DNA from: Kalymmatonema hyalinum WJT4-NPBG1
GTDB lineage: Bacteria; Cyanobacteriota; Cyanobacteriia; Cyanobacteriales; Nostocaceae
Direction of reading: 5' to 3'
DNA: 64,000 bases
Assembly: GCA_019359075.1 (NCBI GenBank)
Contig: JAHHIB010000026.1
Coordinates: 1-64,000, forward strand
Part shown: positions 6,629 to 22,440 of the stretch, in pieces
Position numbering within the stretch: position 1 is the first letter of the stretch
Layout: the number at the start of each line of letters is the position of its first letter
Notes under the pieces: generated by a model
What the model saw: the letters and a program-made list of their open reading frames with translations, nothing else
Told to the model about the DNA's origin: nothing
Databases searched by the model: none
Program-made: the position numbers and the translations under genes

Positions 6629-8362
6629 ATGGCAAATCGCAAACTCTATCTACATTATCTCGCTTTGGCTGGGGCGATCGCCCTGGGTGCAATCTTGCGT
6701 TTTTGGAATTTGGATCTCAAACCTCTGTGGATGGATGAGGTGATTACTGCCATTTTCAGCTTGGGTAAAACCTACAATGATTTGCCTTTGGATGTCGTGT
6801 TACCCCTGGAACGTGTACCAGAGATTTTTACTATCCAACCAGGAGTAAGTTGTTCTCAAATTGCCAAAAACCTTGCAACCCAGTCTACCCATCCGCCGCT
6901 GTTTTTTTGTGGGATGTACAGTTGGTTGAACTGGTTGAGTCCTTTGGGAAGTGAGTGGGTTGTAAAATTGCGATCGCCAGCAGCGTTGTTTGGTGTAGGT
7001 GCAATTGTAGCAATTTACTATGTTAATCGTATTGCCTTCTCTCACTCTGCGGGGATAATCGCAGCAGCTTTTATGGCTGTTTCTCCCTTAGCTGTTTACC
7101 TTTCACAAGAAGCACGGCACTACACATTACCCATGCTCCTGATTAGTTTATCCTTACTGGGGCTGGTGCAAGTTGTCAAGGATATCGAAAAGCGACAGAA
7201 AGTTAGACTTTGGGTTTTGCTGGGATGGGCAATCATTAACAGTATCGGTATTTATGTTCATTATTTTTGCATTCTTGCCTTCATTGCCCAAATTGGCACG
7301 CTACTGGTGCTGGTATGTTGGCGCAGGACAAATATCATTAACAAACGCCAAATTTGGCTAGCACTGATTCTATGTGTAAGTGTTGTTGCAATCAGCTTTT
7401 TGCCCTGGCTACCAGTTGTCGTTAATAACTATAACCGTTCTGAAACTAGCTGGCTGGATCCTCCACAAAACATTTCTCCACTCTATCAAACTCTGATTAG
7501 TTGGCTGCTGATGGTGATTTCTCTTCCTGTAGAAAATCAGATCCTTCCAATTGCAGTTATATGTGGATTGTTAATGCTGTTGTTTGGTGTATGGGTGGGT
7601 TGGCAAGCTTTCAAAGGGTTAAGGCAGCTATGGTGTGCAAAATCAACGCATTTAGCGACACTGACTCTCTTAAGTTTCTCGATTTGGGTATTGTTAGAAT
7701 TTTTTGCCATTGCTTATTTCTTAGGCAAAGATATTACTCCTATTCCCCGTTATCACTTTGTTTATTATCCCAGCTTTTGTGCTCTCCTTGCTGCAAGTTT
7801 TGCTCAAACGAACAAGAAAGAAAAAATAATAAAGTTTTCTATATTCAATCTTCATTCTTCAATCTTCATTCTTTTCCTTGTCGGTATTCTCAGTTGTGTT
7901 TTTGTTGTTTCCAACTTGGTGTTCCAAAAACCTTTTGGACCTGAGCAAGTCGCGCAAAATATGAATCAAGACCCCTCACTTGCCCTGATGATGGTGGTGG
8001 GATACAGAGATTACCAAGATGTGGCGTTAGGCTTAAGTTTCGCTTTAGCACTCGAACCACTTCGCGAAGTAGGGAAAGATAAATTAATTTCTTCATCTCC
8101 CTCATCCGCTTCATCCTCCTCTTCTAATGTTGCTTTCTTCAAGCAATCACCAGACTTTGCTCCTGTCTTGCAAAAACTTTCACAACTTCCTACGCCAACT
8201 GCAACTCAGCTTAATTTGTGGGTTGTTGGTCCAGGTAGAAAACGCAAAGACTATCCACAGCAGATCACACTTTCGCAGCAAATGACTTGCACCATAGATT
8301 CCTTGCAGCACTACCGTGTTGGTGTTCCCTATCAGCTGTATCGCTGTGGAAAAAATTTTTGA
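6629..8362 (+). CDS. GT39-like integral membrane glycosyltransferase
   Basis: A 577-residue multi-spanning protein. I prefer the ATG at 6629, preceded by aaagga, over the longer frame from 6584. The N-terminus has a first TM helix followed by LRFWNLDLKPLWMDEVITA, the acidic first-loop (DE) pattern of PMT/ArnT-type GT-C transferases. About ten further hydrophobic helices follow (for example AAAFMAVSPLAVYLSQEARHY, a typical GT39 'SQEaR.Y' loop). GT-C enzymes transfer sugars from polyprenyl-phosphate donors on the periplasmic side. The acceptor is unknown. A serine-rich stretch near the C-terminus (SSSPSSASSSSSN, encoded at about 8090-8125) is another translated CT-rich repeat. A strong hairpin follows the gene. 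Confidence 0.8.
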   Translation: MANRKLYLHYLALAGAIALGAILRFWNLDLKPLWMDEVITAIFSLGKTYNDLPLDVVLPLERVPEIFTIQPGVSCSQIAKNLATQSTHPPLFFCGMYSWLNWLSPLGSEWVVKLRSPAALFGVGAIVAIYYVNRIAFSHSAGIIAAAFMAVSPLAVYLSQEARHYTLPMLLISLSLLGLVQVVKDIEKRQKVRLWVLLGWAIINSIGIYVHYFCILAFIAQIGTLLVLVCWRRTNIINKRQIWLALILCVSVVAISFLPWLPVVVNNYNRSETSWLDPPQNISPLYQTLISWLLMVISLPVENQILPIAVICGLLMLLFGVWVGWQAFKGLRQLWCAKSTHLATLTLLSFSIWVLLEFFAIAYFLGKDITPIPRYHFVYYPSFCALLAASFAQTNKKEKIIKFSIFNLHSSIFILFLVGILSCVFVVSNLVFQKPFGPEQVAQNMNQDPSLALMMVVGYRDYQDVALGLSFALALEPLREVGKDKLISSSPSSASSSSSNVAFFKQSPDFAPVLQKLSQLPTPTATQLNLWVVGPGRKRKDYPQQITLSQQMTCTIDSLQHYRVGVPYQLYRCGKNF

Positions 8363-8389
8363 ATTTTTGATTATGAAAATCCATTGGCT

Positions 8390-8422
8390 AAGATTCCCGA
8401 CTTCGCCGAAGTCGGGAATCTT
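8390..8422 (+). terminator. Hairpin terminator after the glycosyltransferase gene
   Basis: The arms aagattcccgactt and aagtcgggaatctt are perfect complements around a 5-nt loop, and the complementarity extends into cg on both sides. It lies 28 bp after the stop and is followed by a T/A-rich stretch, consistent with an intrinsic terminator. Confidence 0.75.
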
Positions 8423-8623
8423 ATTATTCAATTTTAAGAATTAAAAAATATTCCTCAGAATTTATGGCTTGCAAATTTGATAATTTCTAACTTAATAATG
8501 ATAAAAATTTGTTATAAATAAGGTATGTACAATTTTTAAGCAGGTATATTTTTTCTATTTTAAAGTAATTGTTGAGTAGGTGCATTTAACCAAAGATCCA
8601 TAATCTCTACACAAAGCTTATCC

Positions 8624-10924
8624 ATGAATTTCCAAGATGTGATGACTGCTCATAATGTTAATTTAACAAATTGCGATCGCGAGCCGATTCACATTCCTGG
8701 CTCTATCCAACCTCACGGTATTCTCTTGGTTTTATCTGAACCTGATTTGGCAATACTCCAAATCAGCAATAATACAGAGGCTTTACTCGGTATTCCACCT
8801 GAAAACTTGTTAGGACAGCACTTATCTATTCTCCTTGAACCAGTTCATCTCAATGCTATTTATGGCTGTCTTCAGGGAGATTTTGAACATCTCAATCCCC
8901 TAAAACTTTTGGTTCGCGCTCAAGGGAAACCGACTGAGTTTAATGGCGTTATTCACCGTTCACCGCAGAACTATCTCATACTAGAACTAGAACCCTGTGA
9001 TCTTGAAAATCTTGAACCAGTCAGCGGGTTGGTCAACTTTTACACTTTGACACGCGGCACACTTACTAAGCTCCAACAGGTTTCAAACTTAAGTGAATTA
9101 AGTGCGATTCTTGTGACAGAAGTAAGAAAAATCACAGGGTTTGACCGAGTCATGGTTTACCGCTTCGATACCAGTGGTTCAGGTGAGGTGATTGCCGAAG
9201 ATAAATTAGAGGAATTAGAGCCTTACCTAGGTTTACACTACCCTGATACTGACATTCCCAAACAAGCAAGACATCTGTATATTGTCAATCCACTGCGCTT
9301 GATTCCCGATGTCAACTATCAACCTGTAGCAATTATCTCCCCTCCACCTCCCTCATCCTCCTCATCCCCCTCATCTCCCCTACCTCCCCTCGATTTAACT
9401 TTCAGTGTCTTGAGGAGCGTTTCTGCGATTCACATTGAATATCTGAAAAACATGGGTGCTCGAGCTTCCATGTCAATTTCACTTATAAAGAACAATAAAC
9501 TATGGGGCTTAATTGCTTGCCATCATCACACTCCTCGATTTGTTCCTTATGAAATCAGAACAATCTGTGAGTTTTTAGGAAAGGTGATGTCTTTAGAACT
9601 CATCTCTAAGGAAGAAAATGAAAATTTAGATTCAAAATTGCAGTTAAAATCGATTCAAACAAAATTTATAGATACAGTTGCACGAGCGCAAGATTTAACT
9701 GATGCCTTAGTGCAAGACAGAGCAAGTTTGCTCAAACTAGTCAACGCTGAAGGTGCGGCAGTATGTCTTGATGGTAATTTGATGCTGATTGGTAAAACAC
9801 CGAAAGAATCAGATATTCATGACTTAGTTGCCTGGTTAAAAGACAAATTTCACAACTACCTTTTTGTTACCGATTCCTTACCTCAGGAATATCCTCCAGC
9901 GATGGAGTTTAAAGAAGTCGCAAGTGGTTTGTTAGCCCTTTCTATCACCAGAATTAGCAACAATTATGTATTGTGGTTCCGTCCAGAAAGATTGCAACAG
10001 GTGAGTTGGGCAGGAAATCCTCAAAAGCCCACAAAAATAGAACCCGATGGTAGTTTAACAATCTTCCCGCGTCAGTCGTTTAAGTTGTGGAAAGAAACTG
10101 TATCCGGTACATCCTCACCTTGGGAGCAGTACGAAATAGATGGAGCAATGGAACTGAGAAGTGCGATTGTTGGGATTGTTCTTCGCAAAGCTGATGAACT
10201 GGCTGCTATCAATTTGGAGTTACAACGCAGCAATAACGAGTTAGATGCTTTTTCGTACATTGCTTCTCATGATCTGAAAGAGCCATTACGCGGCATTCAC
10301 AACTACTCAACATTTTTGCTAGAAGACTATGCCAATGTTTTGGATGGAGAAGGAATCTCGAAGTTAGAAACTTTAGTGCGCTTGACAAAGCGCATGGAGG
10401 ATATCATTAATTCCTTGCTGCATTTTTCCCGTTTGGGACGACAGGAATTAAATATGCAGCTGATAGACTTTAACGATTTGGTGAAGAATGTTGCTGAAGT
10501 CTTCCGCATGAGTTTAGGCGATGTCAATATTAATATCAGGATTCCCAAATCTTTGCCAACGATTCGGGGCGATCGCGTTTTACTTGAGGAAGTCTTAACA
10601 AATTTAATTGGTAATGGCTTCAAATATAATGACAGCCATGAAAAATGGGTAGAAGTAGAATGTTTAGAATCCCAAAACCAACCTCAGGATGCGAGTCCTT
10701 TTTGGACATTTTCCGTCCGCGATAATGGTATTGGCATTCGTAAAAAACATCTGGAAACCATCTTTCGGATTTTTAAGCGGCTGCATGCTCCTGGCAAGTA
10801 TGGCGGTGGTACGGGTGCGGGTTTGACCATTGTGAAGAAAATCATCGAACGACACGATGGTAAAATCTGGGTCGAGTCTACTTACGGTCAGGGCAGTATT
10901 TTCTATTTCACCTTACCACGTTAA
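8624..10924 (+). CDS. cphB: Bacteriophytochrome-type histidine kinase CphB
   Basis: The 766-residue photoreceptor kinase has PAS (about 15-110), GAF (about 140-310), PHY (about 320-500), HisKA (His549 in SYIASHDLKEPLRG) and HATPase_c (DNGIGI, GGTGAGLTIVKKI). The bilin-binding cysteine is N-terminal (Cys17 in NCDREPIHIPGSIQPHG). The GAF position used by Cph1-type phytochromes is isoleucine (Ile269 before His270 in SVSAIHIEYLKNMG). This is the CphB/BphP arrangement that binds biliverdin and senses red/far-red light. Its length equals that recalled for Calothrix CphB. A Pro/Ser run at about residues 238-256 replaces the usual GAF loop. It is followed 6 bp later by its response regulator. Confidence 0.93.
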   Translation: MNFQDVMTAHNVNLTNCDREPIHIPGSIQPHGILLVLSEPDLAILQISNNTEALLGIPPENLLGQHLSILLEPVHLNAIYGCLQGDFEHLNPLKLLVRAQGKPTEFNGVIHRSPQNYLILELEPCDLENLEPVSGLVNFYTLTRGTLTKLQQVSNLSELSAILVTEVRKITGFDRVMVYRFDTSGSGEVIAEDKLEELEPYLGLHYPDTDIPKQARHLYIVNPLRLIPDVNYQPVAIISPPPPSSSSSPSSPLPPLDLTFSVLRSVSAIHIEYLKNMGARASMSISLIKNNKLWGLIACHHHTPRFVPYEIRTICEFLGKVMSLELISKEENENLDSKLQLKSIQTKFIDTVARAQDLTDALVQDRASLLKLVNAEGAAVCLDGNLMLIGKTPKESDIHDLVAWLKDKFHNYLFVTDSLPQEYPPAMEFKEVASGLLALSITRISNNYVLWFRPERLQQVSWAGNPQKPTKIEPDGSLTIFPRQSFKLWKETVSGTSSPWEQYEIDGAMELRSAIVGIVLRKADELAAINLELQRSNNELDAFSYIASHDLKEPLRGIHNYSTFLLEDYANVLDGEGISKLETLVRLTKRMEDIINSLLHFSRLGRQELNMQLIDFNDLVKNVAEVFRMSLGDVNINIRIPKSLPTIRGDRVLLEEVLTNLIGNGFKYNDSHEKWVEVECLESQNQPQDASPFWTFSVRDNGIGIRKKHLETIFRIFKRLHAPGKYGGGTGAGLTIVKKIIERHDGKIWVESTYGQGSIFYFTLPR

Positions 10925-10930
10925 ACAGAT

Positions 10931-11410
10931 ATGCAAGACTCATTACTTCAGTCAGTTCTCAATACCCACAATATCAACAAAGCCATCTTGTTGGTGGAAG
11001 ACAGCGACGAGGATTTTGCAGCATTTAGCCGCATGCTGTGGGAAGCTGCTTTTTTCAACCCAGTGTACCGTACCTGCAATGGCGACGATGCCTTAGACTA
11101 TCTCTACCGCCAAGGCGAGTACGCCGATCCAGCCACGTCTCCTCGTCCAGCCATCATTTTAATAGACCTAAATCTGCCTGGAACTGATGGGCGAGAGGTG
11201 ATTGAACAGGTCAAGCAGGATGAGGCACTCAAAAGTATTCCTATTGTAGTATTTACCACTTCCTCTAGCCCAAAAGATATTAAGACTTGTTACCAATATG
11301 GTGTGAATTGCTATATGCTCAAACCGATTGGTGTGGAAGCTTTGAGAAAAACTATCCGAATTTTTTTAGATTACTGGTTTAAAACAGCTGTTCTTCCCAA
11401 TTCTATATAG
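10931..11410 (+). CDS. rcpB: Phytochrome response regulator RcpB
   Basis: The 159-residue single-domain CheY-like receiver has acidic residues in AILLVEDSDEDFAAF, phospho-acceptor Asp79 in ILIDLNLPGTDG, and the Thr/Lys pair in VVFTTSSSPKDI and YMLKPIGVEALRK. Rcp proteins have an extended C-terminal helix that supports dimerisation, and the tail TIRIFLDYWFKTAVLP fits that. The gene starts 6 bp after cphB, as in Calothrix cphB-rcpB, so it is the expected phosphate acceptor of the phytochrome. It has no DNA-binding output domain. Confidence 0.92.
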   Translation: MQDSLLQSVLNTHNINKAILLVEDSDEDFAAFSRMLWEAAFFNPVYRTCNGDDALDYLYRQGEYADPATSPRPAIILIDLNLPGTDGREVIEQVKQDEALKSIPIVVFTTSSSPKDIKTCYQYGVNCYMLKPIGVEALRKTIRIFLDYWFKTAVLPNSI

Positions 11411-11412
11411 TA

Positions 11413-14400
11413 ATGAAGGAGAGCCAACGCACTATTTTTATTATCGATGACTGTGTAGAAGACCGCACAGCATATCGTCGCTACTTAGAGTGCAGTACCA
11501 CAGATCATCGCCAGTACACTTATGAGTTTGTAGAATTTGAATCCGCAGCAGATGCGATTGAGCATTGCCAACATTCGATGCCAGATCTCATCCTGCTCGA
11601 TTTCATGCTACCAGATGCAACTGGGCTAGAATTTATTGAAGAATTAAAGCTTTCTACTGGTAGAAGCTTGTTGCCAATAGTCATGCTGACGGGATACGGA
11701 AATGAAAGCGTTGCTGTCGAGGCGATGAAAAGCGGCGCGCAGGATTATCTAGTCAAGGGAAAACTGACAAGCCAAGCTCTCAATCGTTCCTGTTATACGG
11801 TTATGGAACGAGTGCGCCTCATGCAGCAGCTAGAACATCAGCAAGAGCAGCAACGTTTAATTGCAACAATTGCTCTGCGCATTCGTCAATCCTTGAGCTT
11901 AGAAATTGTTCTCAATACAGCAGTCGATGAAATCCGTGACTTTCTCAAAACGGATCGGGTGCTTGTCTACAAGTGTCCTCCAGATATGAGCGGCACAATT
12001 ATTGCAGAATCTGTTTTGCCTAAGTGGAAGTCGTGCCTCAATGCCAAATTTGAGGATACCTGCTTTCAAAATATCAGAGCAAGCAATCATCACCGTCGCT
12101 CAGGTGCGGTTAATGATATATATGCAGCTAAATTGTCTGACTGCTATGTTCAAATGCTAGAACAATTTCAAGTCAAGGCAATTTTGTTTGTCCCGATTTT
12201 TTGCACTACTCAATCCCAAGAAGCTGAGCAATCAGTTTGGGGTTTACTAGTGGCTCACCAGTGTTCTGCTGCGCGTCAATGGCAGTCATGGGAAATAAAT
12301 TTGTTAGAGCAACTTTCTGTGCAACTGGGGATTGCAATTCAACAGGCAGAACTTTACCAAAATTTGCAAAACCTCAATACACAGCTAGAAGTGAAAGTGC
12401 AAGAGCGCACAGTTCAATTACAGCAAAGCGAACGCAAATACCGTGCCATTTTTGAACAGACTTTTCAATTTATTGGGTTATTAGCTCCAGATGGCAAAGT
12501 TTTAGAACTCAACCAGGCATGTTTAGAGTTTTGTAACAAGAAACACGATGCTGCGATTGGCAAATTCTTCTGGGAGTTGTTCTGTTGTCAGATTGTCCCA
12601 GAAGCGCACAGAGGATTGCGAAAAGCGATCGCCCAAGCAGCTCTTGGTTCTTGTACTCACTGTCAGGTGAGAGTACCTAACGGACAATGTGTTTTGAGAA
12701 CTGTTGATTTTTCCTTCAAGCCTATCCTTAATAATACAGGGGAAGTTGTCTGGCTGCTATTAGAAGGACAAGATATTACAGAACGCAAGCAAGCAGAAGA
12801 AGACTTGTGTCAACTCAATCAAGGGTTGGAAGCAAGAGTCATACAGCGCACCAGTGATTTAGAGCAGGCAAATGCTAACTTACGCAGCGAGATTGCCCAA
12901 CGTCAACACATAGAAGATGAACTGCGTCAAAGTGAACAGAAGTTTCGTCAACTAGCAGAAAATATCCGCGAAGTTTTCTTTGTCTACAACCATGACTTGA
13001 GCGAACTAATTTATATCAGCCCAGCTTACGAAGAGATTTGGGGTTGTTCCAGCTCCAGTCTGTATCAAAACCCTGCATCTTGGTTTGAGCTTGTCCATCC
13101 TGATGACAAAGATACTGTCTTGCAGGATGTCAACAGAAGTATAAATATTGAAGGTTTCAAACACGAATATCGAATCATCCGAGCTGATGGAGAGATTCGT
13201 TGGATTTGTACCAGAAGTTTTTATGTTCGAGATGACGCTCTTGAAGTTCAACGTGTCGTCGGTTTGGCTGAAGATATTACCGAACGCAAAATTAGAGAAG
13301 CAGAACTTCGAGAAACTAACGCCTTACTCCAGGCAATTATTCAATCTGCGCCAGTAGGGATTGATTTAGTTGCTCCTGACGGTAATGTTGTCCTCTGGAA
13401 CCCGATGTGCGAGCGTATCTTGGGTTGGGATGCTCAGGAAGTCCTTGGCAAGCCATTACCAATGATTTCCCCAAAAGAACAGGAAAAGTTTCTCGAATTT
13501 CTGCACCAAACCCTTGCTGGTGAGGGATTAACCCAAGTGGAAACTCATCGCCTCAGGAAAGATGGTTCGATAGTTGACATTAGTCTTTCAACAGCTTTGG
13601 TACGGGATACCCAAGGAAAAATCATTGGTGGTATTGGAATTACCCAAGATATTAGCGAACGCAAACAGGCTGAATTAGAGCTTATTCGTAATCGCGATTT
13701 ACGAGAAGCTATCTTTAATGAATCAGCAGATGCTATTTTCCTGGTAGATGCTGACACTCTTTTGATCATTGATTGTAATCGCCGTGCTATTGAGTTGTTT
13801 GAAGCCTCTAGCAAAGAGGAACTAATTAATATTCGCGGCAGCACATTACAAAGATATCAGTTCACTGCCGAAGAGACAGAGAAAATCCTAGAAGAAATTA
13901 AAATCAAAGGCTTTTGGAGTCAAGAAATTGAATACGTTACCCGCAAAGGCAATTTATTTTGGGGTCATTTAGCTTCCAAACAAATTAGTGTTGCTGGTAA
14001 AGTTCATAGGCTGGTACGGGTAAGCGATATTAGCGAACGGCACGCCGCGCTGCGCGAACGCAAGCGGACAGTAGAACAACTTCAGCATTCATTAGAGGAA
14101 AAAGAGACTCTGCTGAAGGAAATTCACCATCGCGTCAAAAATAACCTGCAAATTATTTCCAGCTTATTACGAATGCAGTCCCGACGTGCTCAAGATCAAG
14201 GTACTATGATCTTATTTCAAGAGTCTCAAAATAGAGTGCAATCTATGGCACTGATTCATGAACATTTGTATCAGTCGCCCGAACTCTCCCAAATAGACTT
14301 TGGTCAATACATCCACAGCTTGACGAACAACCTTTTGCGCTCCTATGGGATGAGCCAAAAGACGATTGCCCTGAAGATTGAAACCAATGGAATTAAGCTT

Positions 14401-14712
14401 AGTCTCGATACTGCTATTCCTTGCGGGCTGCTTATCAACGAACTGGTTTCCAACTCTCTCAAGTACGCTTTTCCCAACGACAAAAGTGGCGAAATCATTA
14501 TTCGTCTTATGCCAGAGACTGATAAGACCATTACGCTAACAGTAGGCGATAGTGGTATTGGCATTCCAGAAACTCTAGATTGGCAAAATACCAACTCTTT
14601 GGGTTTAAGAATAGTACATAACTTAACAAAACAACTTAAAGGTAACATACTCCTTGAGGGCGATCGCGGTACCACATTCCATATCACCTTTCCCAGGGCT
14701 TTAAAACCTTAA
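11413..14712 (+). CDS. REC-GAF(cyanobacteriochrome-like)-PAS-HisKA_2 sensor kinase
   Basis: This 1099-residue kinase starts 2 bp after rcpB. The receiver domain is at about 1-130 (Asp63 in LILLDFMLPDATG). The GAF domain is at about 145-320. Coiled coil and four PAS/PAC modules occupy about 340-880 (GQDITERKQ, LAEDITERKI, TQDISERKQ, VSDISERHA). HisKA_2 has EIHHRVKNNLQIISSLLRMQ (His905/906) and HATPase_c has DSGIGIPE. The GAF carries landmarks of cyanobacteriochromes: LKTDRVLVYKCPPDMSGTII, then NDIYAAKLSDCYVQMLEQF with Cys244 at the canonical bilin site (Tyr in place of the usual His), and WGLLVAHQCSAARQW. This suggests a second light sensor in the phytochrome operon, though bilin binding is inferred. 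Confidence 0.88.
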   Translation: MKESQRTIFIIDDCVEDRTAYRRYLECSTTDHRQYTYEFVEFESAADAIEHCQHSMPDLILLDFMLPDATGLEFIEELKLSTGRSLLPIVMLTGYGNESVAVEAMKSGAQDYLVKGKLTSQALNRSCYTVMERVRLMQQLEHQQEQQRLIATIALRIRQSLSLEIVLNTAVDEIRDFLKTDRVLVYKCPPDMSGTIIAESVLPKWKSCLNAKFEDTCFQNIRASNHHRRSGAVNDIYAAKLSDCYVQMLEQFQVKAILFVPIFCTTQSQEAEQSVWGLLVAHQCSAARQWQSWEINLLEQLSVQLGIAIQQAELYQNLQNLNTQLEVKVQERTVQLQQSERKYRAIFEQTFQFIGLLAPDGKVLELNQACLEFCNKKHDAAIGKFFWELFCCQIVPEAHRGLRKAIAQAALGSCTHCQVRVPNGQCVLRTVDFSFKPILNNTGEVVWLLLEGQDITERKQAEEDLCQLNQGLEARVIQRTSDLEQANANLRSEIAQRQHIEDELRQSEQKFRQLAENIREVFFVYNHDLSELIYISPAYEEIWGCSSSSLYQNPASWFELVHPDDKDTVLQDVNRSINIEGFKHEYRIIRADGEIRWICTRSFYVRDDALEVQRVVGLAEDITERKIREAELRETNALLQAIIQSAPVGIDLVAPDGNVVLWNPMCERILGWDAQEVLGKPLPMISPKEQEKFLEFLHQTLAGEGLTQVETHRLRKDGSIVDISLSTALVRDTQGKIIGGIGITQDISERKQAELELIRNRDLREAIFNESADAIFLVDADTLLIIDCNRRAIELFEASSKEELINIRGSTLQRYQFTAEETEKILEEIKIKGFWSQEIEYVTRKGNLFWGHLASKQISVAGKVHRLVRVSDISERHAALRERKRTVEQLQHSLEEKETLLKEIHHRVKNNLQIISSLLRMQSRRAQDQGTMILFQESQNRVQSMALIHEHLYQSPELSQIDFGQYIHSLTNNLLRSYGMSQKTIALKIETNGIKLSLDTAIPCGLLINELVSNSLKYAFPNDKSGEIIIRLMPETDKTITLTVGDSGIGIPETLDWQNTNSLGLRIVHNLTKQLKGNILLEGDRGTTFHITFPRALKP

Positions 14713-14741: not shown

Positions 14742-15863
14742 ATGGTTCCGATAAAAATCTTGGTTGTTGAAGACGAACAGCTTGTTGCTGATGATTTGAG
14801 AGAAACACTGGAATATCTAGGATATGTTGTTCCTGCTCTCGTCGCAACGGGAGAAGAAGCCATTCTCATGGTGGAATTGCTTCAACCCAACTTAGTGTTA
14901 ATGGATATCAGGCTTGCGGGAGAGATGGACGGAGTCGAAGCTTCATTTAAGATTCAATCTCGTTTCCATGTACCTGTCGTCTACCTTACTGCCAATGCAG
15001 ATCGAGCAACTCTAGAACGAGTCAAAGCCACGCAGCCTTTTGGCTATATTTTAAAGCCTTTTGATGAAAAGATACTTTCTACCACAATTGAAATTGCTCT
15101 CGGACGCTATCAGGCACACTTTGAGGTACAAAAGGCGTTGTCTATAGCTCAAGCAGATAAGCAAATTGCCCAGTACCAATCTCAGATGAAATCTCAATAC
15201 CTCTACATGGCGGCTCATGAATTTCGCAATCCTCTCACGACAATTAGGTTGGGTTCTGAAATACTCAAACACTACAGCAACCAACTGCCAAAAGAGAAAA
15301 TACAAAAGCACATCGATCGCATTCAATCTGCCACCGATAGTTTAATTGATCTATTGGATGACATCCTAACACTAGGGCAGGCTGAATCCGGCGCAATTCA
15401 ATGCAATCCTGCACTAATGGATGTTGTCACATTCTGTCAAGAACAAGTTGAAGCCTTAGATTTGGCAGTAGGAGAGAAACATGAGATGCAATTGTCAGTT
15501 ATAGGCGAGCAACGTATTGCCTATCTCGATGAAAAACTCCTTTGGCATTTACTGAATAATCTGCTTTCTAATGCCATTAAGTACTCTCCAGAAGGTGGCA
15601 TAGTATCGCTAACCCTGTCTTGGGAGGAAAAAAACATTTGTTTCCAGGTACAAGACCAAGGAGTTGGAATTCCAAAAGAATCTCAGGCAAAGCTTTTTGA
15701 ACCTTTCCAACGCGCACGTAACGTTGCGAATATTCCAGGTACAGGATTGGGGCTGGCAATTGTTAAGCAATGCGTCGAGATGCATGGAGGCACGATCAGT
15801 TTTGAAAGTGAGGTCTGTCGGGGTACAACTTTTGTCGTTAGGTTGCCCCTCCGAAATTCGTGA
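14742..15863 (+). CDS. REC-HisKA-HATPase hybrid sensor kinase
   Basis: The 373-residue protein has an N-terminal receiver (residues about 5-120; VVEDEQLVADDLRE, Asp55 in LVLMDIRLAGEMDG, Lys in FGYILKPFDEK), a short coiled linker, HisKA with His159 in YMAAHEFRNPLTTIRLG, and HATPase_c (LLNNLLSNAIKYSPEGG, DQGVGIPKE, GTGLGLAIVKQCVEMH). There is no membrane segment or sensory domain, so the receiver probably gates the kinase in response to an upstream kinase. It lies 29 bp after the HisKA_2 kinase, in the same strand block as cphB and rcpB. It is likely part of the same light-signalling operon. Confidence 0.9.
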   Translation: MVPIKILVVEDEQLVADDLRETLEYLGYVVPALVATGEEAILMVELLQPNLVLMDIRLAGEMDGVEASFKIQSRFHVPVVYLTANADRATLERVKATQPFGYILKPFDEKILSTTIEIALGRYQAHFEVQKALSIAQADKQIAQYQSQMKSQYLYMAAHEFRNPLTTIRLGSEILKHYSNQLPKEKIQKHIDRIQSATDSLIDLLDDILTLGQAESGAIQCNPALMDVVTFCQEQVEALDLAVGEKHEMQLSVIGEQRIAYLDEKLLWHLLNNLLSNAIKYSPEGGIVSLTLSWEEKNICFQVQDQGVGIPKESQAKLFEPFQRARNVANIPGTGLGLAIVKQCVEMHGGTISFESEVCRGTTFVVRLPLRNS

Positions 15864-16371
15864 ACTAATGACAACGCAAACGCTTGTTTTCAACAAGCCC
15901 TAGTTTTAGCTATAAGCAATCACTTAAGAGTCGTTGAATTTTGATTACGTCATATGATGCCCTGATGAACACTTATAAAAAACGAAGAACCTCACCCGCC
16001 TCCCTTCCCCTCTCCACACAATCACGCTCAAATTCACGCATTAGAAATTCACGCGTTCAAACAAAAGATTCTTATTCTTGATTTTGAACGCGTGAATTTT
16101 GATAGGGCAGCGTTAGCCCGTGCCGCTTTTCTTGTGCCATATTTTGAATTCAGCGAAGGGGGTTGGGGTGAGGTAAAGCAGGAATTATAAGTTATGAAGC
16201 GGACTTGATATCACTTTACTTTCAATGAAATCAATTAGACTACAACCAATACATATGTAAACAATTAATCTTATGATCTTATTTTCAAAGTTAAACAGAA
16301 ATATAACTAAATATAGATGCGAAAGCCATTAGCTTACTGTGTCTTAACCTTACATCTGCGAAAAGACAACA
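15864..16371. other. 508-bp gene-free stretch with interspersed repeats
   Basis: No supportable gene was found. The stretch holds a CT-rich segment near 15990-16020, the inverted repeat at 16045-16099, a cgttagcccgtgccgc element near 16110 that resembles one near 24390, and an AT-rich region before the dual kinase gene that probably contains its promoter. Confidence 0.6.
16045..16099. repeat. Inverted repeat with 17-bp perfect arms
   Basis: aaattcacgcgttcaaa (16045-16061) pairs perfectly with tttgaacgcgtgaattt (16083-16099) around a 21-nt loop. Related words (attcacgcattagaa) recur just upstream and again near 60015. It could act as a terminator for the kinase operon or be a small palindromic mobile repeat. 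Confidence 0.75.
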
Positions 16372-19300
16372 ATGAGTATCACCATTGGCGGTTACAACCT
16401 CATCAAGGTCATTTATGACAGTACCACGAGCTGTGTTTATCGTGCTGTGAGAGAGTCAGACCAAACCTCAGTGATTATTAAAACTCTGAAATTTGAGTAT
16501 CCCACCCTAGAACAAATCACCCGATTAAGACATGAATATCAAATACTTCAAGTCTTAGAGATAGAAGGAATTGTTAAACCCTTATCATTGGAAACCTATC
16601 AAAATGGTCTGGCGCTAATTTTGTCAGATTTTGGGGGAGAAACTCTAGAATATTTTATCATCGCTCAAGCTCTTGAGTTAAGCAATTTTTTACAAATTGC
16701 TATTCAATTATCTTCAACGCTTGCTCAAATACATCAAAAAAATATTATTCATAAAGATATCAAACCCCAGAATATTCTTATTAATCCGAAAATAGGTCAA
16801 GCTGAAATTATAGACTTTAGCATTGCATCGCGTCTATCGAGTGAAAATCAGACAGTCAGTAATCCGACTTTGCTAGAAGGCACCCTCGCCTATATGTCAC
16901 CAGAACAAACTGGGAGGATGAACCGTTCAATTGATTACCGAACTGACTTTTACTCCTTAGGCATAACTTTCTATGAAATACTAACAGGGCGGCTACCTTT
17001 TCAAGCTACCGACCCTTTGGAATTAATTCACTGCCATATTGCTAAAACACCAGCATCGCCCAAAGAAGTAAATCCAGAGATTCCCCAAGCGGTTTCTGAT
17101 ATTGTCATGAAATTATTAGCCAAGACTGCTGAAGAGAGATATCAAAGTGCTTTGGGACTAAAAGCCGATTTAGAAGAATGTCTTAGAAAACTGCAAGCAA
17201 CTGGCAAAATTGAAGATTTCATAATCGGTCAGCTTGATTTATACAGCCAGTTTCTCATTCCGCAAAAACTTTATGGTCGCAAAAAAGAAGTTGCCACCCT
17301 AATAGGTGCCTTTGAACGAGTGGCAAACCCCCCTATATCCCCCCTTGCTAAGGGGGGATATAGGGGGGTAGAGATCATGTTAGTGAGTGGTTACTCAGGT
17401 ATTGGAAAATCCTCGTTAGTGAATGAAGTTCATAAACCCATTATCCGCCAGCGTGGTTATTTTATTTCCGGTAAGTTTGACCAATTGAAACGGAATATTC
17501 CTTATGCTTCCTTGATTCAAGCTTTTCAGGAATTGATGCGGCAACTACTTATGGAAAGTATTGACAGCATCGCGCTTTTGAAAACAAAACTCTTAGAAGC
17601 ATTAGGCTCGAATGGTCAGGTCATTATTGATGTTATTCCGGAAGTTGAAAGAATTATTGGTTCTCAGCCAGATGTTGCTCAATTGGGACCAACTGAATCT
17701 CAAAACCGATTTCATCGGCTGTTTCAAAAATTTATTCATGTATTTAGTAAACCTGAACATCCCCTAGTACTTTTCCTAGACGACTTACAATGGGCAGATT
17801 TAGCTTCCCTAAAGTTGATTCAGTTGCTTGCTTGTGACTCAGATAGTCAATATTTGTTGCTGATTGGAGCATATCGAGATAACGAAGTGAGTGCGACTCA
17901 TCCATTAATGTTGACTTTGCAGGAGATTCAATCTAATGGTGCAACGATCAACAATATTGTCCTTCAGCCTTTGCATATCACTCATGTCAACCAATTAGTA
18001 AGCGAAACCCTTCGCTCTGACACAGACAATTCAAAGCCACTCGCTGAGATACTGTTTAACAAAACTCAGGGAAATCCCTTCTTCTTAATTCAACTGCTCA
18101 AATCCCTCAACCAGGAAAACCTGTTGTCATTCAATTTCAGTGAAGGTTGCTGGCAATGGGATATTGAACTGATTGGCGGCATTGATATCACCGATAATGT
18201 TGTTGAATTAATGGTCAGCCAGATTCAGAAGCTGTCGCCAACAACGCAGAATATCTTAAAGTTAGCTGCTTGTATTGGAGATAAATTTACCTTAGATGTT
18301 CTCAGTATTGTTAATGAAAAATCTTGGTCAGAAACAGCAGCAGATTTGTGGGAATCTTTGCAGGCAGGATTAGTTTTGCCTCTGAACGAGTTCTACAAAA
18401 TTCCTCTGGTGAGTAGTGTTCAGCAAAATGAACAACTGGTAACTCATAAAAGACAGCAAACAATTGCATATAAGTTTTTGCATGACCGGGTGCAACAAGC
18501 ATCTTATTCTCTCATTCCAGATTTGCAGAAAAAAGAAACCCATCTAAAAATTGGTCAATTACTACTACAAAATAATACGTTTGAAGAACGAAAAGAAAAT
18601 ATCTTTGCTTTGCTCAACCAACTGAATTTTGGCACCGACTTACTCACTTCAGAATCAGAAAAATATGAGCTAGCTGAACTCAATCTCCTAGCAGGTCAGA
18701 AAGCAAAAGTAGCGACGGCATATGAGTCTGCTATCCGCTATCTAAACGTGGGTTTGAGCCTGTTGACAGATTCTAGCTGGCATCAGCAATATGAACTGAC
18801 ATTAGCTCTACATCAGGAAGCAGCAGAAGCGGCATTTCTCAGTGGTGACTTTGAGCAAATGGAGCAACTAGCTGACGTCGTGTTGCAACAAGCCAAAAGA
18901 CAGCTAGACAAAGTGAAAGTTTATGAGTTGCGAATCAAAACTCGTCAAGTGCAAAGAAAACTACTCGAAGCGGTGAAGCTTGGTCTGCAAGTTTTGAAAA
19001 TACTGGGAGTAGAAGTTGCAGAATCACCAACTCCATTAGATATCCAGCAAGCTATTGAGGAAACAACAGCAAATATAGCAGGTAAAGGAATAGAAGATTT
19101 AATTAATTTACCGCCAATGACAGATACGAACAAGCTAGCAGCCCTTCGGCTGATAGTAAGTTTAGTTCCTGCTGCCTATCAATGTGCACCTGCACTCTTT
19201 ATCCTGATGGCTTGCCAGCAAGTCAATTTATCTATTCAATATGGAAATACTCCTTTGTCAGCTTGCGGTTTTGCTGATTATGGAGTGGTTTTCAGCGGAT

Positions 19301-22300
19301 TATTACAAGATATTGAAACAAGTTATAAATTTGGAAAATTGGCTTTAAATTTATTAGACCGTTTAGATGCTCGTGAGGTGAGAAGCCAGGTCTTATTTAA
19401 GGTTTCAACATTCATCATACATTGGAAATATCATATTAGAGAGACTTTACCACTTTTAGAAGATGCTTACTCCAGTGGATTGGAATATGGAGATTTAGTA
19501 CATACTGGATATTCAGCAAGTAATAAGTGTCAATATTCCTATTGGAGCGGTTCGGAGTTAAAAAGCCTGGAACAGGAAATGGCGCAATATAGTAAGGCGA
19601 TCGCTCAAGTTAATCAAGAAACTGCCTTAAAGTGGCATCAAATATTTCATCAGGCAGTTTTGAACTTAATAGGATTGGCTGAAAATCCTTGCCGTTTAGT
19701 TGGTGAAGTTTACAATGAAGATCAATTCCTACCACTTCACATTCAATTCAATGAGCGCACAGTAGCTCACTATGTATTTCTTAATAAATTAATCCTCTGT
19801 TACCTATTTGGTGAGTTTTCTCAAGCTGCAGAAAATGCAACTAAAGCCCAACACTATTTAGACGGGGTAATAGGGTGGTTAACTGTGCCGTTTTTCCATT
19901 TCTATGATTCTTTAGCACAACTAGCGATATATCCATCAGTACCACACTCACAACAAGAAGACCTGTTGAGTAGAGTGATGAAGAACCAGGAAAAGATGCA
20001 AAGATGGGCAGAACATGCCCCAATGAATTTTCAGCATAAGTACGAGCTTGTGGAGGCAGAGAAAGCGCGGGTATTGGGTCAATATTGGCAAGCGATGGAG
20101 TGTTATGACCGAGCCATTGCGCTCGCTAAGGAGCAGGGATACATCCAGGAAGAAGCGCTAGCAAATGAACTGGCAGCAAAGTTTTATTTTGAGCATGGCA
20201 GAGAAAAGGTAGCTCAGACCTATTTGACTGATGCTTACTATGGATATCTTCGTTGGGGAGCAACAGGAAAAGTTAGAGAGTTGGAAATAAGATATCCTGA
20301 CAATTTTTCCCAAATATCAAACCAAAAAACCAAATCTATAAAGATAGATCAGACAATTAACTCTACAACTAAAGCTAGTCCCATTTTTCTGGATTTCGCT
20401 ACAGTTATGAAAGCTTCGCAAGCTCTGGCTAGCGAAATTCTTCTGGAGAAATTGCTGGCAAAAATGATGCAAATTGTTATTGAAAATGCTGGTGCAGAAA
20501 CTGGATTTTTAATTTTAGAAAAAGCAGGGGTGTTATTCATAGAAGCTTCAGGAAGTGTCGGACAAAGTGACATAAGCGTGCAGCAGACACCTCTAGAATT
20601 CAGTCAGCAGCTACCGATATCTGTGATAAATTACGTGCATCGAACTCAGGAAAATGTCGTACTGAACGATGCGACTGGTGAGGAATCCTTTACGACAGAT
20701 AGCTATATCATCAATAGAAAACCAAAATCTATTTTATGTATGCCAATTGTTCATCAAGGTAAACTTATTGGCATTCTTTACTTAGAAAATAACTTGACCA
20801 TTGGAGCATTTACGCCGGAGCGATTGGAAGTTTTACAACTTTTATCTTCTCAAGCAGCAATCTCAATTCAAAATGCGCGTCTCTATAATGACTTAGAGGA
20901 ATATAATCGGACTCTGGCAGCGAAAGTAGAAGAGCGAACATTAGAGCTACAAGATAAAAATTTGCAACTCCAACAGGAAATTTGCATTAGCGAAGCTGCC
21001 CGAAGAGAACGCCAGCAAGCAGAAGAAGCAGCGAACGCCGCCAACCGTGCTAAGAGCGAATTCCTAGCTAACATGAGTCATGAACTCCGCACGCCGCTGA
21101 ATGGAATTTTGGGTTATACTCAAATCTTTCAGAAAGATAAAACTTTAACCGCTCACCAAAAGAATGGTATAGACATCATTCATCAGTGTGGCGAACACTT
21201 ACTAACGCTAATTAACGATATTTTAGACCTCTCCAAAATCGAAGCTCGGAAAATGGAAGTTTATCCAAAAGAATTTCATTTTCCTCAATTTCTTGAAAGT
21301 ATTGCCGAAATTTGTCGCATCCATGCCGAACAAAAGGGAGTTCCATTAATTTACAAAACTCTTTTCCCACTACCAAGAGTCATTCAAGCAGATGAAAAAC
21401 GGTTGCGTCAAGTCTTGATGAATTTACTTAGCAATGCAGTTAAGTTTACAGAAAAAGGTAGTATAACTTTAAAAGTGGGTTATCACAAGGAGAAACTTCG
21501 TTTTCAAGTAGAAGATACAGGTATTGGAATTGCACCTGAGCAATTAGAAGAAATATTTTTGCCTTTCAAGCAGGTGGGTGAGGATAGCCGTAAAATTGAA
21601 GGCACAGGATTGGGATTGGCAATTAGCCGTCAATTAGTTCAAATCATGGGTGGCGAACTAAAGGTGAAGAGTACTTTAGGTAAAGGAAGCGTTTTTTGGC
21701 TCGATTTGACTTTACCTGAGATTTTCCAACCAAGTGATACCAACAGTCTTGATGAACCTAACATTATTACTTTTGTTGGCTCTAAACGAAAAGTTTTGGT
21801 AGTAGATGATAAACCGGCAAATCGCTCTGTCTTAGTTAATTTACTACAGCCTTTAGGTTTTGAAGTTGTGGAAGCGGCAGATGGCTTAGAGGGTCTAAAC
21901 AAAGCGCGTGAATTTAAGCCAGATGTGATTTTAATGGATTTGGTTATGAGTGGGATGGACGGCTTTGAAGCCACCCGTCGCCTCAGGATGTTACCAGACT
22001 TCAAGGAAGTGGTCGTGATTGCCGTCTCAGCTAGCGTTTTTGAGTTGGATCGGCAGCAAAGCCGAGAAGTTGGTTGCGATGATTTTCTCGCAAAACCAAT
22101 CCAAAAAGCGGAGCTTTTAGAAAGATTACGGATTCACTTGGGGTTGGAATGGGTTTATGAGGAACAACACAGCAAGGTACAACTCCGGAACGCCACTACA
22201 TTCAAGGTTGGGAACCTCCCCACGCGGCTGGCTTCTCAGGTATCATTTGTGGCTCCACCAGCAGAGGAACTTGCAGTCTTGGTTGATTTGGCGATGAGGG

Positions 22301-22440
22301 GGGACTTAAGAGGCATTACACAACGAGCGGCAAAATTAGAGGAGCTAGAGCAACGATGGGTACCGTTTGCTACCCATTTGCGCCAACTTGCTAAAGATTT
22401 TAAAGGGAAACAAATTCTGGAGTTTCTCAAAAAATATTAA
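16372..22440 (+). CDS. Ser/Thr kinase-AAA ATPase-GAF-histidine kinase-receiver protein (HstK-like)
   Basis: The 2022-residue protein has, in order: a Hanks-type Ser/Thr kinase domain (about 1-275; HKDIKPQNILI with Asp129); an AAA/STAND-like ATPase (GYSGIGKSSLVNE, Lys346; VLFLDDLQWADLASLKL); a long helical/TPR-like region to about 1330; GAF (about 1350-1500); coiled coil; HisKA (His1570 in FLANMSHELRTPLNG); HATPase_c; and a receiver (Asp1856 in VILMDLVMSGMDG). A helical HPt-like tail may follow. Such dual Ser/Thr-His kinases are typical of Nostocales. The known homologue is Anabaena HstK, and ligands are mostly unknown. The GAF lacks cyanobacteriochrome motifs. A 43-bp palindrome is translated in frame near residue 320. 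Confidence 0.9.
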   Translation: MSITIGGYNLIKVIYDSTTSCVYRAVRESDQTSVIIKTLKFEYPTLEQITRLRHEYQILQVLEIEGIVKPLSLETYQNGLALILSDFGGETLEYFIIAQALELSNFLQIAIQLSSTLAQIHQKNIIHKDIKPQNILINPKIGQAEIIDFSIASRLSSENQTVSNPTLLEGTLAYMSPEQTGRMNRSIDYRTDFYSLGITFYEILTGRLPFQATDPLELIHCHIAKTPASPKEVNPEIPQAVSDIVMKLLAKTAEERYQSALGLKADLEECLRKLQATGKIEDFIIGQLDLYSQFLIPQKLYGRKKEVATLIGAFERVANPPISPLAKGGYRGVEIMLVSGYSGIGKSSLVNEVHKPIIRQRGYFISGKFDQLKRNIPYASLIQAFQELMRQLLMESIDSIALLKTKLLEALGSNGQVIIDVIPEVERIIGSQPDVAQLGPTESQNRFHRLFQKFIHVFSKPEHPLVLFLDDLQWADLASLKLIQLLACDSDSQYLLLIGAYRDNEVSATHPLMLTLQEIQSNGATINNIVLQPLHITHVNQLVSETLRSDTDNSKPLAEILFNKTQGNPFFLIQLLKSLNQENLLSFNFSEGCWQWDIELIGGIDITDNVVELMVSQIQKLSPTTQNILKLAACIGDKFTLDVLSIVNEKSWSETAADLWESLQAGLVLPLNEFYKIPLVSSVQQNEQLVTHKRQQTIAYKFLHDRVQQASYSLIPDLQKKETHLKIGQLLLQNNTFEERKENIFALLNQLNFGTDLLTSESEKYELAELNLLAGQKAKVATAYESAIRYLNVGLSLLTDSSWHQQYELTLALHQEAAEAAFLSGDFEQMEQLADVVLQQAKRQLDKVKVYELRIKTRQVQRKLLEAVKLGLQVLKILGVEVAESPTPLDIQQAIEETTANIAGKGIEDLINLPPMTDTNKLAALRLIVSLVPAAYQCAPALFILMACQQVNLSIQYGNTPLSACGFADYGVVFSGLLQDIETSYKFGKLALNLLDRLDAREVRSQVLFKVSTFIIHWKYHIRETLPLLEDAYSSGLEYGDLVHTGYSASNKCQYSYWSGSELKSLEQEMAQYSKAIAQVNQETALKWHQIFHQAVLNLIGLAENPCRLVGEVYNEDQFLPLHIQFNERTVAHYVFLNKLILCYLFGEFSQAAENATKAQHYLDGVIGWLTVPFFHFYDSLAQLAIYPSVPHSQQEDLLSRVMKNQEKMQRWAEHAPMNFQHKYELVEAEKARVLGQYWQAMECYDRAIALAKEQGYIQEEALANELAAKFYFEHGREKVAQTYLTDAYYGYLRWGATGKVRELEIRYPDNFSQISNQKTKSIKIDQTINSTTKASPIFLDFATVMKASQALASEILLEKLLAKMMQIVIENAGAETGFLILEKAGVLFIEASGSVGQSDISVQQTPLEFSQQLPISVINYVHRTQENVVLNDATGEESFTTDSYIINRKPKSILCMPIVHQGKLIGILYLENNLTIGAFTPERLEVLQLLSSQAAISIQNARLYNDLEEYNRTLAAKVEERTLELQDKNLQLQQEICISEAARRERQQAEEAANAANRAKSEFLANMSHELRTPLNGILGYTQIFQKDKTLTAHQKNGIDIIHQCGEHLLTLINDILDLSKIEARKMEVYPKEFHFPQFLESIAEICRIHAEQKGVPLIYKTLFPLPRVIQADEKRLRQVLMNLLSNAVKFTEKGSITLKVGYHKEKLRFQVEDTGIGIAPEQLEEIFLPFKQVGEDSRKIEGTGLGLAISRQLVQIMGGELKVKSTLGKGSVFWLDLTLPEIFQPSDTNSLDEPNIITFVGSKRKVLVVDDKPANRSVLVNLLQPLGFEVVEAADGLEGLNKAREFKPDVILMDLVMSGMDGFEATRRLRMLPDFKEVVVIAVSASVFELDRQQSREVGCDDFLAKPIQKAELLERLRIHLGLEWVYEEQHSKVQLRNATTFKVGNLPTRLASQVSFVAPPAEELAVLVDLAMRGDLRGITQRAAKLEELEQRWVPFATHLRQLAKDFKGKQILEFLKKY
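17327..17369. repeat. Perfect 20-bp-arm palindrome inside a coding sequence
   Basis: acccccctatatcccccctt (17327-17346) is exactly complementary to 17350-17369, with loop gct. It is an interspersed cyanobacterial-type palindrome sitting in frame in the dual kinase gene. It is translated as NPPISPLAKGGYRG between the Ser/Thr kinase and the ATPase domains, just before the P-loop. Confidence 0.9.

Follow-up and report, generated by a model that had tools for sequence, protein, structure and literature searches.

PPHK, the phosphorylation-responsive photosensitive histidine kinase of Leptolyngbya sp. JSC-1 (PDB 6oap, 6oaq and 6ob8), is a dual sensor histidine kinase and the only solved kinase met in this analysis in which light and phosphorylation signals are merged. 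Its N-terminal REC domain lies directly before a cyanobacteriochrome-type GAF domain, and the same arrangement, together with a kinase core, is found in the kinase considered here, which we call KIN and which is encoded in a 64,000-nt stretch of the cyanobacterium Kalymmatonema hyalinum WJT4-NPBG1 (positions 1 to 64,000 of contig JAHHIB010000026.1; hereafter, the window). The original PPHK paper (by Shin and colleagues, from 2019) is said to speak in its abstract of an upstream photoreceptor. Excerpts from later sources describe PPHK as merging light and phosphorylation in the manner of a molecular logic OR (a review, PMC8584932) and place its Pg state at 562 nm (PMC11480761). Two further systems are related in part. 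A phytochrome and Rcp pair, CphB-RcpB, is likewise described for Calothrix PCC 7601 (in a portion of PMC3264485), and LvrB is a REC-controlled histidine kinase that takes its input through an N-terminal REC (in a portion of PMC13269768), although it is built as REC-DHp-CA with no light-sensing domain in between, whereas KIN has a GAF.

We compared KIN with these systems and found that its residues 2-317 match the PPHK crystal construct end to end (E = 6e-78). The layout of the gene is as follows.

11413..14712, + strand: KIN, REC-GAF-PAS-HisKA_2-HATPase kinase of 1099 aa (open reading frame list, Pfam, PDB match)
11434..11760, + strand: REC domain, residues 8-116 (Pfam Response_reg)
11845..12372, + strand: cyanobacteriochrome-type GAF, residues ~145-320 (Pfam GAF at 163-309; Pfam, PDB match, fold search)
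12055..12066, + strand: DXCF motif Asp215-Thr-Cys217-Phe with the second Cys (aligns with DPCF of TePixJ)
12067..12117, + strand: rewritten loop QNIRASNHHRRSGAVND, residues 219-235, one residue shorter (alignment)
12142..12147, + strand: canonical bilin Cys244, followed by Tyr245 (alignment)
12430..14052, + strand: PAS repeats, residues ~340-880, about four as judged by spacing (Pfam)
14119..14346, + strand: HisKA_2 (HWE-like) phospho-acceptor domain, residues 903-978, H-box EIHHRVKNNL (Pfam)
14428..14697, + strand: HATPase_c, residues 1006-1095 (Pfam)

KIN belongs to a known kind, that of the PPHK-type REC/cyanobacteriochrome kinases, and is a divergent variant of it in a phytochrome-Rcp cluster. 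On the domains, both Cys positions, the REC residues, synteny, co-divergence, purifying selection and PPHK homology, we consider it somewhat probable that KIN is a dual-input histidine kinase of this type within an inherited phytochrome-Rcp-(REC/cyanobacteriochrome)kinase cluster, gated by CphB-dependent phosphorylation and by light. The residues expected for phosphorylation of its REC (Asp12-Asp13, Asp63, Thr93 and Lys115) are all present and are invariant in four aligned orthologues, and the predicted phosphorylation site is thus intact. An earlier first-pass annotation of the window had proposed that this REC accepts a phosphate signal, and PPHK, whose REC-GAF unit KIN matches throughout, provides the precedent. 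PPHK itself has Tyr at the place of the second Cys (DQYF), Cys-His at the bilin site and an EDYRQGR loop; KIN, unlike PPHK, has DTCF, Cys-Tyr and a rewritten loop, and carries PAS repeats and HisKA_2 as well. The exact PPHK gene was not found in 388 sampled genomes of the class, where the best match reached 71%.

The genes that adjoin KIN are given below.

8624..10924, + strand: cphB-like phytochrome, PAS-GAF-PHY-HisKA-HATPase, 766 aa (Pfam, Cys typing)
10931..11410, + strand: rcpB-like single-domain response regulator, 159 aa (Pfam, PDB match)
14742..15863, + strand: RHK, a REC-HisKA-HATPase kinase of 373 aa, 29 nt after KIN (Pfam)

The rcpB stop at 11410 is followed by TA (2 nt) and then by the KIN ATG at 11413, precisely the spacing that had been annotated, and this spacing together with the synteny suggests that KIN is co-transcribed with rcpB and cphB. 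Because CphB has the N-terminal Cys17 and an Ile replaces its GAF Cys at the aligned position (SVSAIHIEYL), it is typed as a biliverdin phytochrome, in agreement with the first-pass annotation. Among PDB entries, the window Rcp matches Calothrix RcpB best (1k66, E = 1.5e-54), but since only 76 of 144 aligned residues are identical (53%), the window protein is probably not its direct orthologue. The order cphB-rcpB-KIN-RHK was retained in six genomes of three genera, namely the window genome (G000) and two others of its genus (G001 and G002), two of a second genus (G019 and G212) and one of a third (G110), so that the earlier suggestion of an operon with two photoreceptors is a well-founded inference. 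We defined KIN-RHK orthologue loci by REC-GAF identity of at least 53% together with an adjacent full-length RHK of at least 65%; RHK adjoins KIN in all nine such loci, a count that is partly definitional because the adjacent RHK is a criterion of the class. The pair was found in 8 of the 22 regions searched, and in G218 (L110) an RHK of 66% lies on the strand opposite to that of a KIN-like kinase end. A pattern scan of genome contigs yielded 2 useful loci out of 17, and in a plasmid search none of 14 records exceeded 60% identity.

We further analyzed how commonly such gene neighborhoods occur. Among the best 30 Rcp loci of a family search, examined with flanks of 1.5 kb, a phytochrome kinase lay upstream in every case and a REC-bearing gene, recognized by reading of the matches, lay downstream in 25, G008 being included on the strength of the typing of its next gene. 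The next gene could be typed in 24 of these loci and contained a cyanobacteriochrome-like GAF in eight, six of which belong to the window lineage. Additional regions were picked mostly for side-by-side Rcp and REC-GAF matches and are therefore biased towards triads; both sets together comprised 24 triads with a GAF match in the third gene. The canonical Cys was present in 21 of these 24 (followed by His in 15, Tyr in five and Glu in one), and 20 of the 21 also had a Cys at the DXC position, the exception being G110. All 20 phytochromes typed in these 21 triads (the frame of that of G019 was not resolved) had the N-terminal Cys, and 19 had no GAF Cys; that of G212 (L101, ~6844-9099) has both, in the contexts TNCD and STCH, respectively. 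In the other three triads (G018, G019b and G009), the phytochrome carries its Cys in the GAF instead of near the N-terminus, and the GAF of the third gene is too diverged for its Cys to be placed confidently. The REC/cyanobacteriochrome kinase travels in a recurring cluster alongside Rcp and a phytochrome; in most cases the phytochrome is of biliverdin type and the GAF has two cysteines. As a side observation, the third-gene GAF is strongly diverged at L187, L188 and L189, three triads whose phytochrome has its Cys in the GAF and none at the N-terminus, as though a cyanobacteriochrome partner were retained only beside phytochromes of biliverdin type. Among 30 PPHK-like GAF loci, an Rcp lay directly before REC-GAF in four (L217, which is nearest to PPHK at 71%, L219, L222 and L245), and a phytochrome kinase preceded this Rcp in L219 and L245. 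Among the papers listed by a literature search of limited coverage, no account of such an operon was seen.

Across 22 triads, the distances that separate the phytochromes co-varied with those that separate the REC-GAF units (r = 0.965). The correlation was 0.969 without the three most diverged triads (n = 19), 0.941 after near copies were thinned (n = 14) and 0.952 with both cuts (n = 11), and in each of these four tests 0 of 2000 permutations reached the observed value. Such co-variation shows that phytochrome and REC-GAF were inherited together, but does not distinguish this from a shared species history. Quick midpoint-rooted trees, built without bootstrap, were consistent with this: the phytochrome tree groups the window lineage with G361 and with G042a, G083 and G196, and in the REC-GAF tree they likewise fall on a single side. 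Because both trees agree and the distances co-vary, shared inheritance with losses is simpler than independent assembly. Independent assembly of the window triad had first been suggested by the REC-GAF tree and was rejected; two of the rows scored there as having no phytochrome (L030 and L032) have an Rcp just upstream, and for most of the other such rows the flank checked was at most 1.5 kb.

Turning to the photosensory domain, we found that the PDB matches to REC-GAF at E ≤ 1e-20 comprised 11 distinct sequences, all of them cyanobacteriochromes or fluorescent proteins evolved from one. A fold search with a KIN model ranked the three PPHK entries first, although the model is of middling confidence (3-row alignment, pLDDT 65, pTM 0.65) and too weak to judge the pocket. 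In sequence and in fold, the KIN GAF is nearest to cyanobacteriochromes rather than to other GAFs. The first-pass annotation had called it a probable cyanobacteriochrome GAF with Cys244 at the bilin position; the three GAF strings that it quoted all occur in the KIN translation, and in alignments with PPHK, miRFP670nano, RcaE, NpR6012g4 and TePixJ, Cys244 falls in register with their canonical bilin Cys. Alignment of the Asp and Cys motifs also brought out what that annotation lacked, a second cysteine, Cys217, in a DXCF motif. DXCF cyanobacteriochromes are defined by this second Cys (according to a section of PMC11284453), and, as judged from its sequence, the KIN GAF is of this dual-Cys type. 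TePixJ (PDB 3vv4/4glq) shares with it the Asp-x-Cys-Phe motif, the canonical Cys in register and a Leu at Cys+5, but has His rather than Tyr after the Cys and the usual inter-cysteine loop, and its entry is named a chemotaxis receptor, whereas KIN is a REC-kinase. The usual DXCF traits seen in TePixJ, the ..YRQGR.. pocket loop and the His after Cys, which are customary and not strictly defining, are absent from KIN.

Tyr245 aligns with the residue that directly follows the canonical Cys in the five cyanobacteriochromes listed above. Cys-His had been described as the norm at this site, which is partly right. Starting from 38 tblastn hits, we aligned 37 GAF-like domains of the window genome, of which 15 had no Cys at the bilin place and 22 did (at least one of these being a phytochrome-like GAF); Cys-His was the commonest form (11/22), followed by Cys-Tyr (8), Cys-Leu (2) and Cys-Phe (1). 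The position is variable among known cyanobacteriochromes as well, RcaE having Cys-Leu. Of the six syntenic orthologues, G000, G001, G002 and G019 have Tyr at this place, G212 has His and G110 has Glu. Given this variation and the frequency of Cys-Tyr in the genome, we rejected the earlier view of Cys-Tyr as a distinguishing oddity. In a separate protein of the window genome (L003; G000:C18, from ~340), three successive cyanobacteriochrome GAFs all have DPCF, and two of them combine Cys-Tyr with the usual loop.

The same residue bears on the idea that the GAF binds biliverdin instead of phycocyanobilin, so that both sensors of the operon would use one pigment, with Tyr245 stacking on biliverdin as in miRFP670nano. 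The directed evolution that led from NpR3784 to a biliverdin binder, miRFP670nano, chose H87Y, which is reported to stack on biliverdin (a portion of PMC6336887) and which we placed next to the bilin Cys, and miRFP670nano is among the best PDB matches of KIN. However, Tyr245 is not fixed among the syntenic orthologues, Cys-Tyr is common in the genome, and this position is not one of the four BV4 residues through which AnPixJ came to accept biliverdin (a portion of PMC8156171). We regard this idea as improbable.

The unusual feature of the KIN GAF is instead its rewritten inter-cysteine loop, which is conserved between two genera. Arg222, Ser224, His226, Arg229 and Gly231-Asp235 are invariant in G000, G001, G002 and G019; as these residues are identical, the loop has been rewritten and then maintained, and is not drifting.

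Several observations weigh against the dual-input reading, those on the GAF pocket being taken here and those on the operon after them. The loop stands where most aligned relatives read like ..YRQGR/K.., it is one residue short, and with it was lost the Tyr equivalent to AnPixJ Tyr302 (by our own numbering), a residue listed around the bilin in a modelling study (an excerpt of PMC7727823). Tyr245 occupies the place of AnPixJ His322, one of five residues described as crucial for cofactor stability (in a portion of PMC8156171). The fold model has pLDDT below 50 across the DTCF loop. The second Cys is gone in one syntenic orthologue (G110) and is replaced by Tyr in the phytochrome-free G227 and G224, and the ratio of nonsynonymous to synonymous substitution rates (dN/dS) of the core GAF is 0.89 in the close pair G000/G002, on few changes. 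The replaced and shortened loop, the missing Tyr302-type residue and the loss of the second Cys in G110 would suit a retired photoreceptor, that is, a GAF that keeps its fold and inherited cysteines, no longer binds bilin once the pocket loop is lost, and serves only to hand on the REC signal through the helix of a REC-controlled kinase. The variation of the residue after Cys among Tyr, His and Glu is in keeping with this, and decay of this GAF does seem to happen, because the third-gene GAFs of G018, G019b and G009 have diverged beyond confident Cys placement. On the other hand, the canonical Cys is retained in 9/9 of the KIN-RHK orthologue loci and the second Cys in 6/9, and the new loop is itself conserved. 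In addition, dN/dS of the whole GAF in three within-genus pairs was 0.21, 0.44 and 0.30 (0.34, 0.89 and 0.39 for the core, residues 180-290, on few changes), and GAF and REC were about equally conserved between genera (identities of 0.73/0.72, 0.70/0.71 and 0.62/0.66), which points to purifying selection that acts on the GAF about as it does on REC. Retirement of the GAF is a serious rival that we nonetheless judge unlikely.

As for the operon, the KIN REC is not notably similar to RcpB (25% identity), and KIN-RHK occurs with no phytochrome in 19.5-kb stretches of G099, G227 and G224. Conversely, the nearest cphB-rcpB outside the genus (G059, L192 2770-3246; 79-80%) has no KIN in a 9-kb stretch, and in 26 of the 30 PPHK-like loci, including the second nearest (L218), no Rcp was found beside the GAF gene within the flank. 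The first three of these points would suit mere co-expression of the genes, in which CphB acts via RcpB alone and KIN-RHK is a light system of its own, with a different kinase supplying its REC. Against this speak the REC-bearing gene that follows Rcp in most of the top Rcp loci, all of which have the upstream phytochrome kinase, and the co-divergence of phytochrome and REC-GAF. We regard mere co-expression as a possible though somewhat doubtful account.

Under the dual-input reading that we prefer, the CphB kinase would phosphorylate RcpB and also, whether directly or through competition, Asp63 in the KIN REC; with REC only 25% identical to RcpB, the KIN sequence holds no sign that CphB is the donor. 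The KIN GAF would hold a bilin on Cys244, most likely phycocyanobilin or phycoviolobilin. The window genome has one gene of the ferredoxin-dependent bilin reductase family, and phycocyanobilin or a like pigment is therefore likely to be available. Cys217 would form and break a second bilin link, as in other DXCF cyanobacteriochromes, which would put GAF absorption in the violet-to-green range, well away from that of CphB. With its gene order shared by related genomes, the set looks like a built-in two-colour light circuit of an established kind. Converging on a single signalling helix, the two inputs may then determine the state of the HisKA_2 kinase; we infer OR-type logic here, as we do the bilin binding, the colours and the phosphotransfer partners.

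From KIN, the phosphate would most likely go to the REC of RHK. This step is suggested because KIN adjoins RHK and has a single REC (Pfam), whereas three other triad kinases examined have more than one. By Pfam, these three (L182, L196 and L217, the last being the nearest PPHK-like gene), all with HisKA, contain more than one REC stretch each, clearly C-terminal in two; BLAST found a second REC in only 4 of 18 other GAF-bearing triad kinases (L182, L183, L184 and L195) and missed the Pfam one in L196.

A bolder version holds that KIN represents a dual-Cys cyanobacteriochrome with a novel class of pocket (DTCF, Cys-Tyr and the loop RxSxHxxRxGAVND) amid a REC-gated chain CphB -> KIN -> RHK. We think this quite unlikely; if true, light would enter the same phosphorelay twice, via a biliverdin phytochrome and via a blue/green sensor. 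With four purified proteins, it becomes directly testable which donor supplies the REC of kinases like KIN, and the syntenic orthologues, which naturally differ in having His, Tyr or Glu after the bilin Cys, offer a ready-made colour-tuning set.

We also looked for regulatory signals. Promoter-like sites showed no excess (12, compared with a mean of 16.9 in shuffles), and terminator-like sites numbered nine, compared with 6.8 in shuffles (standard deviation 2.7). Downstream of RHK, one further signalling gene was annotated.

16372..22440, + strand: Ser/Thr kinase-AAA-GAF-HisKA-HATPase-REC hybrid (Pfam)

In two sister species with matching flanks, this hybrid kinase comes 23 and 27 nt after RHK. 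In the window, the interval between the two genes (15864-16371) is longer by ~480 bases, which include an imperfect inverted repeat of 24 nt and probably split a five-gene cluster; parts of this additional DNA are also present at other places in the genome, at 86-96%.

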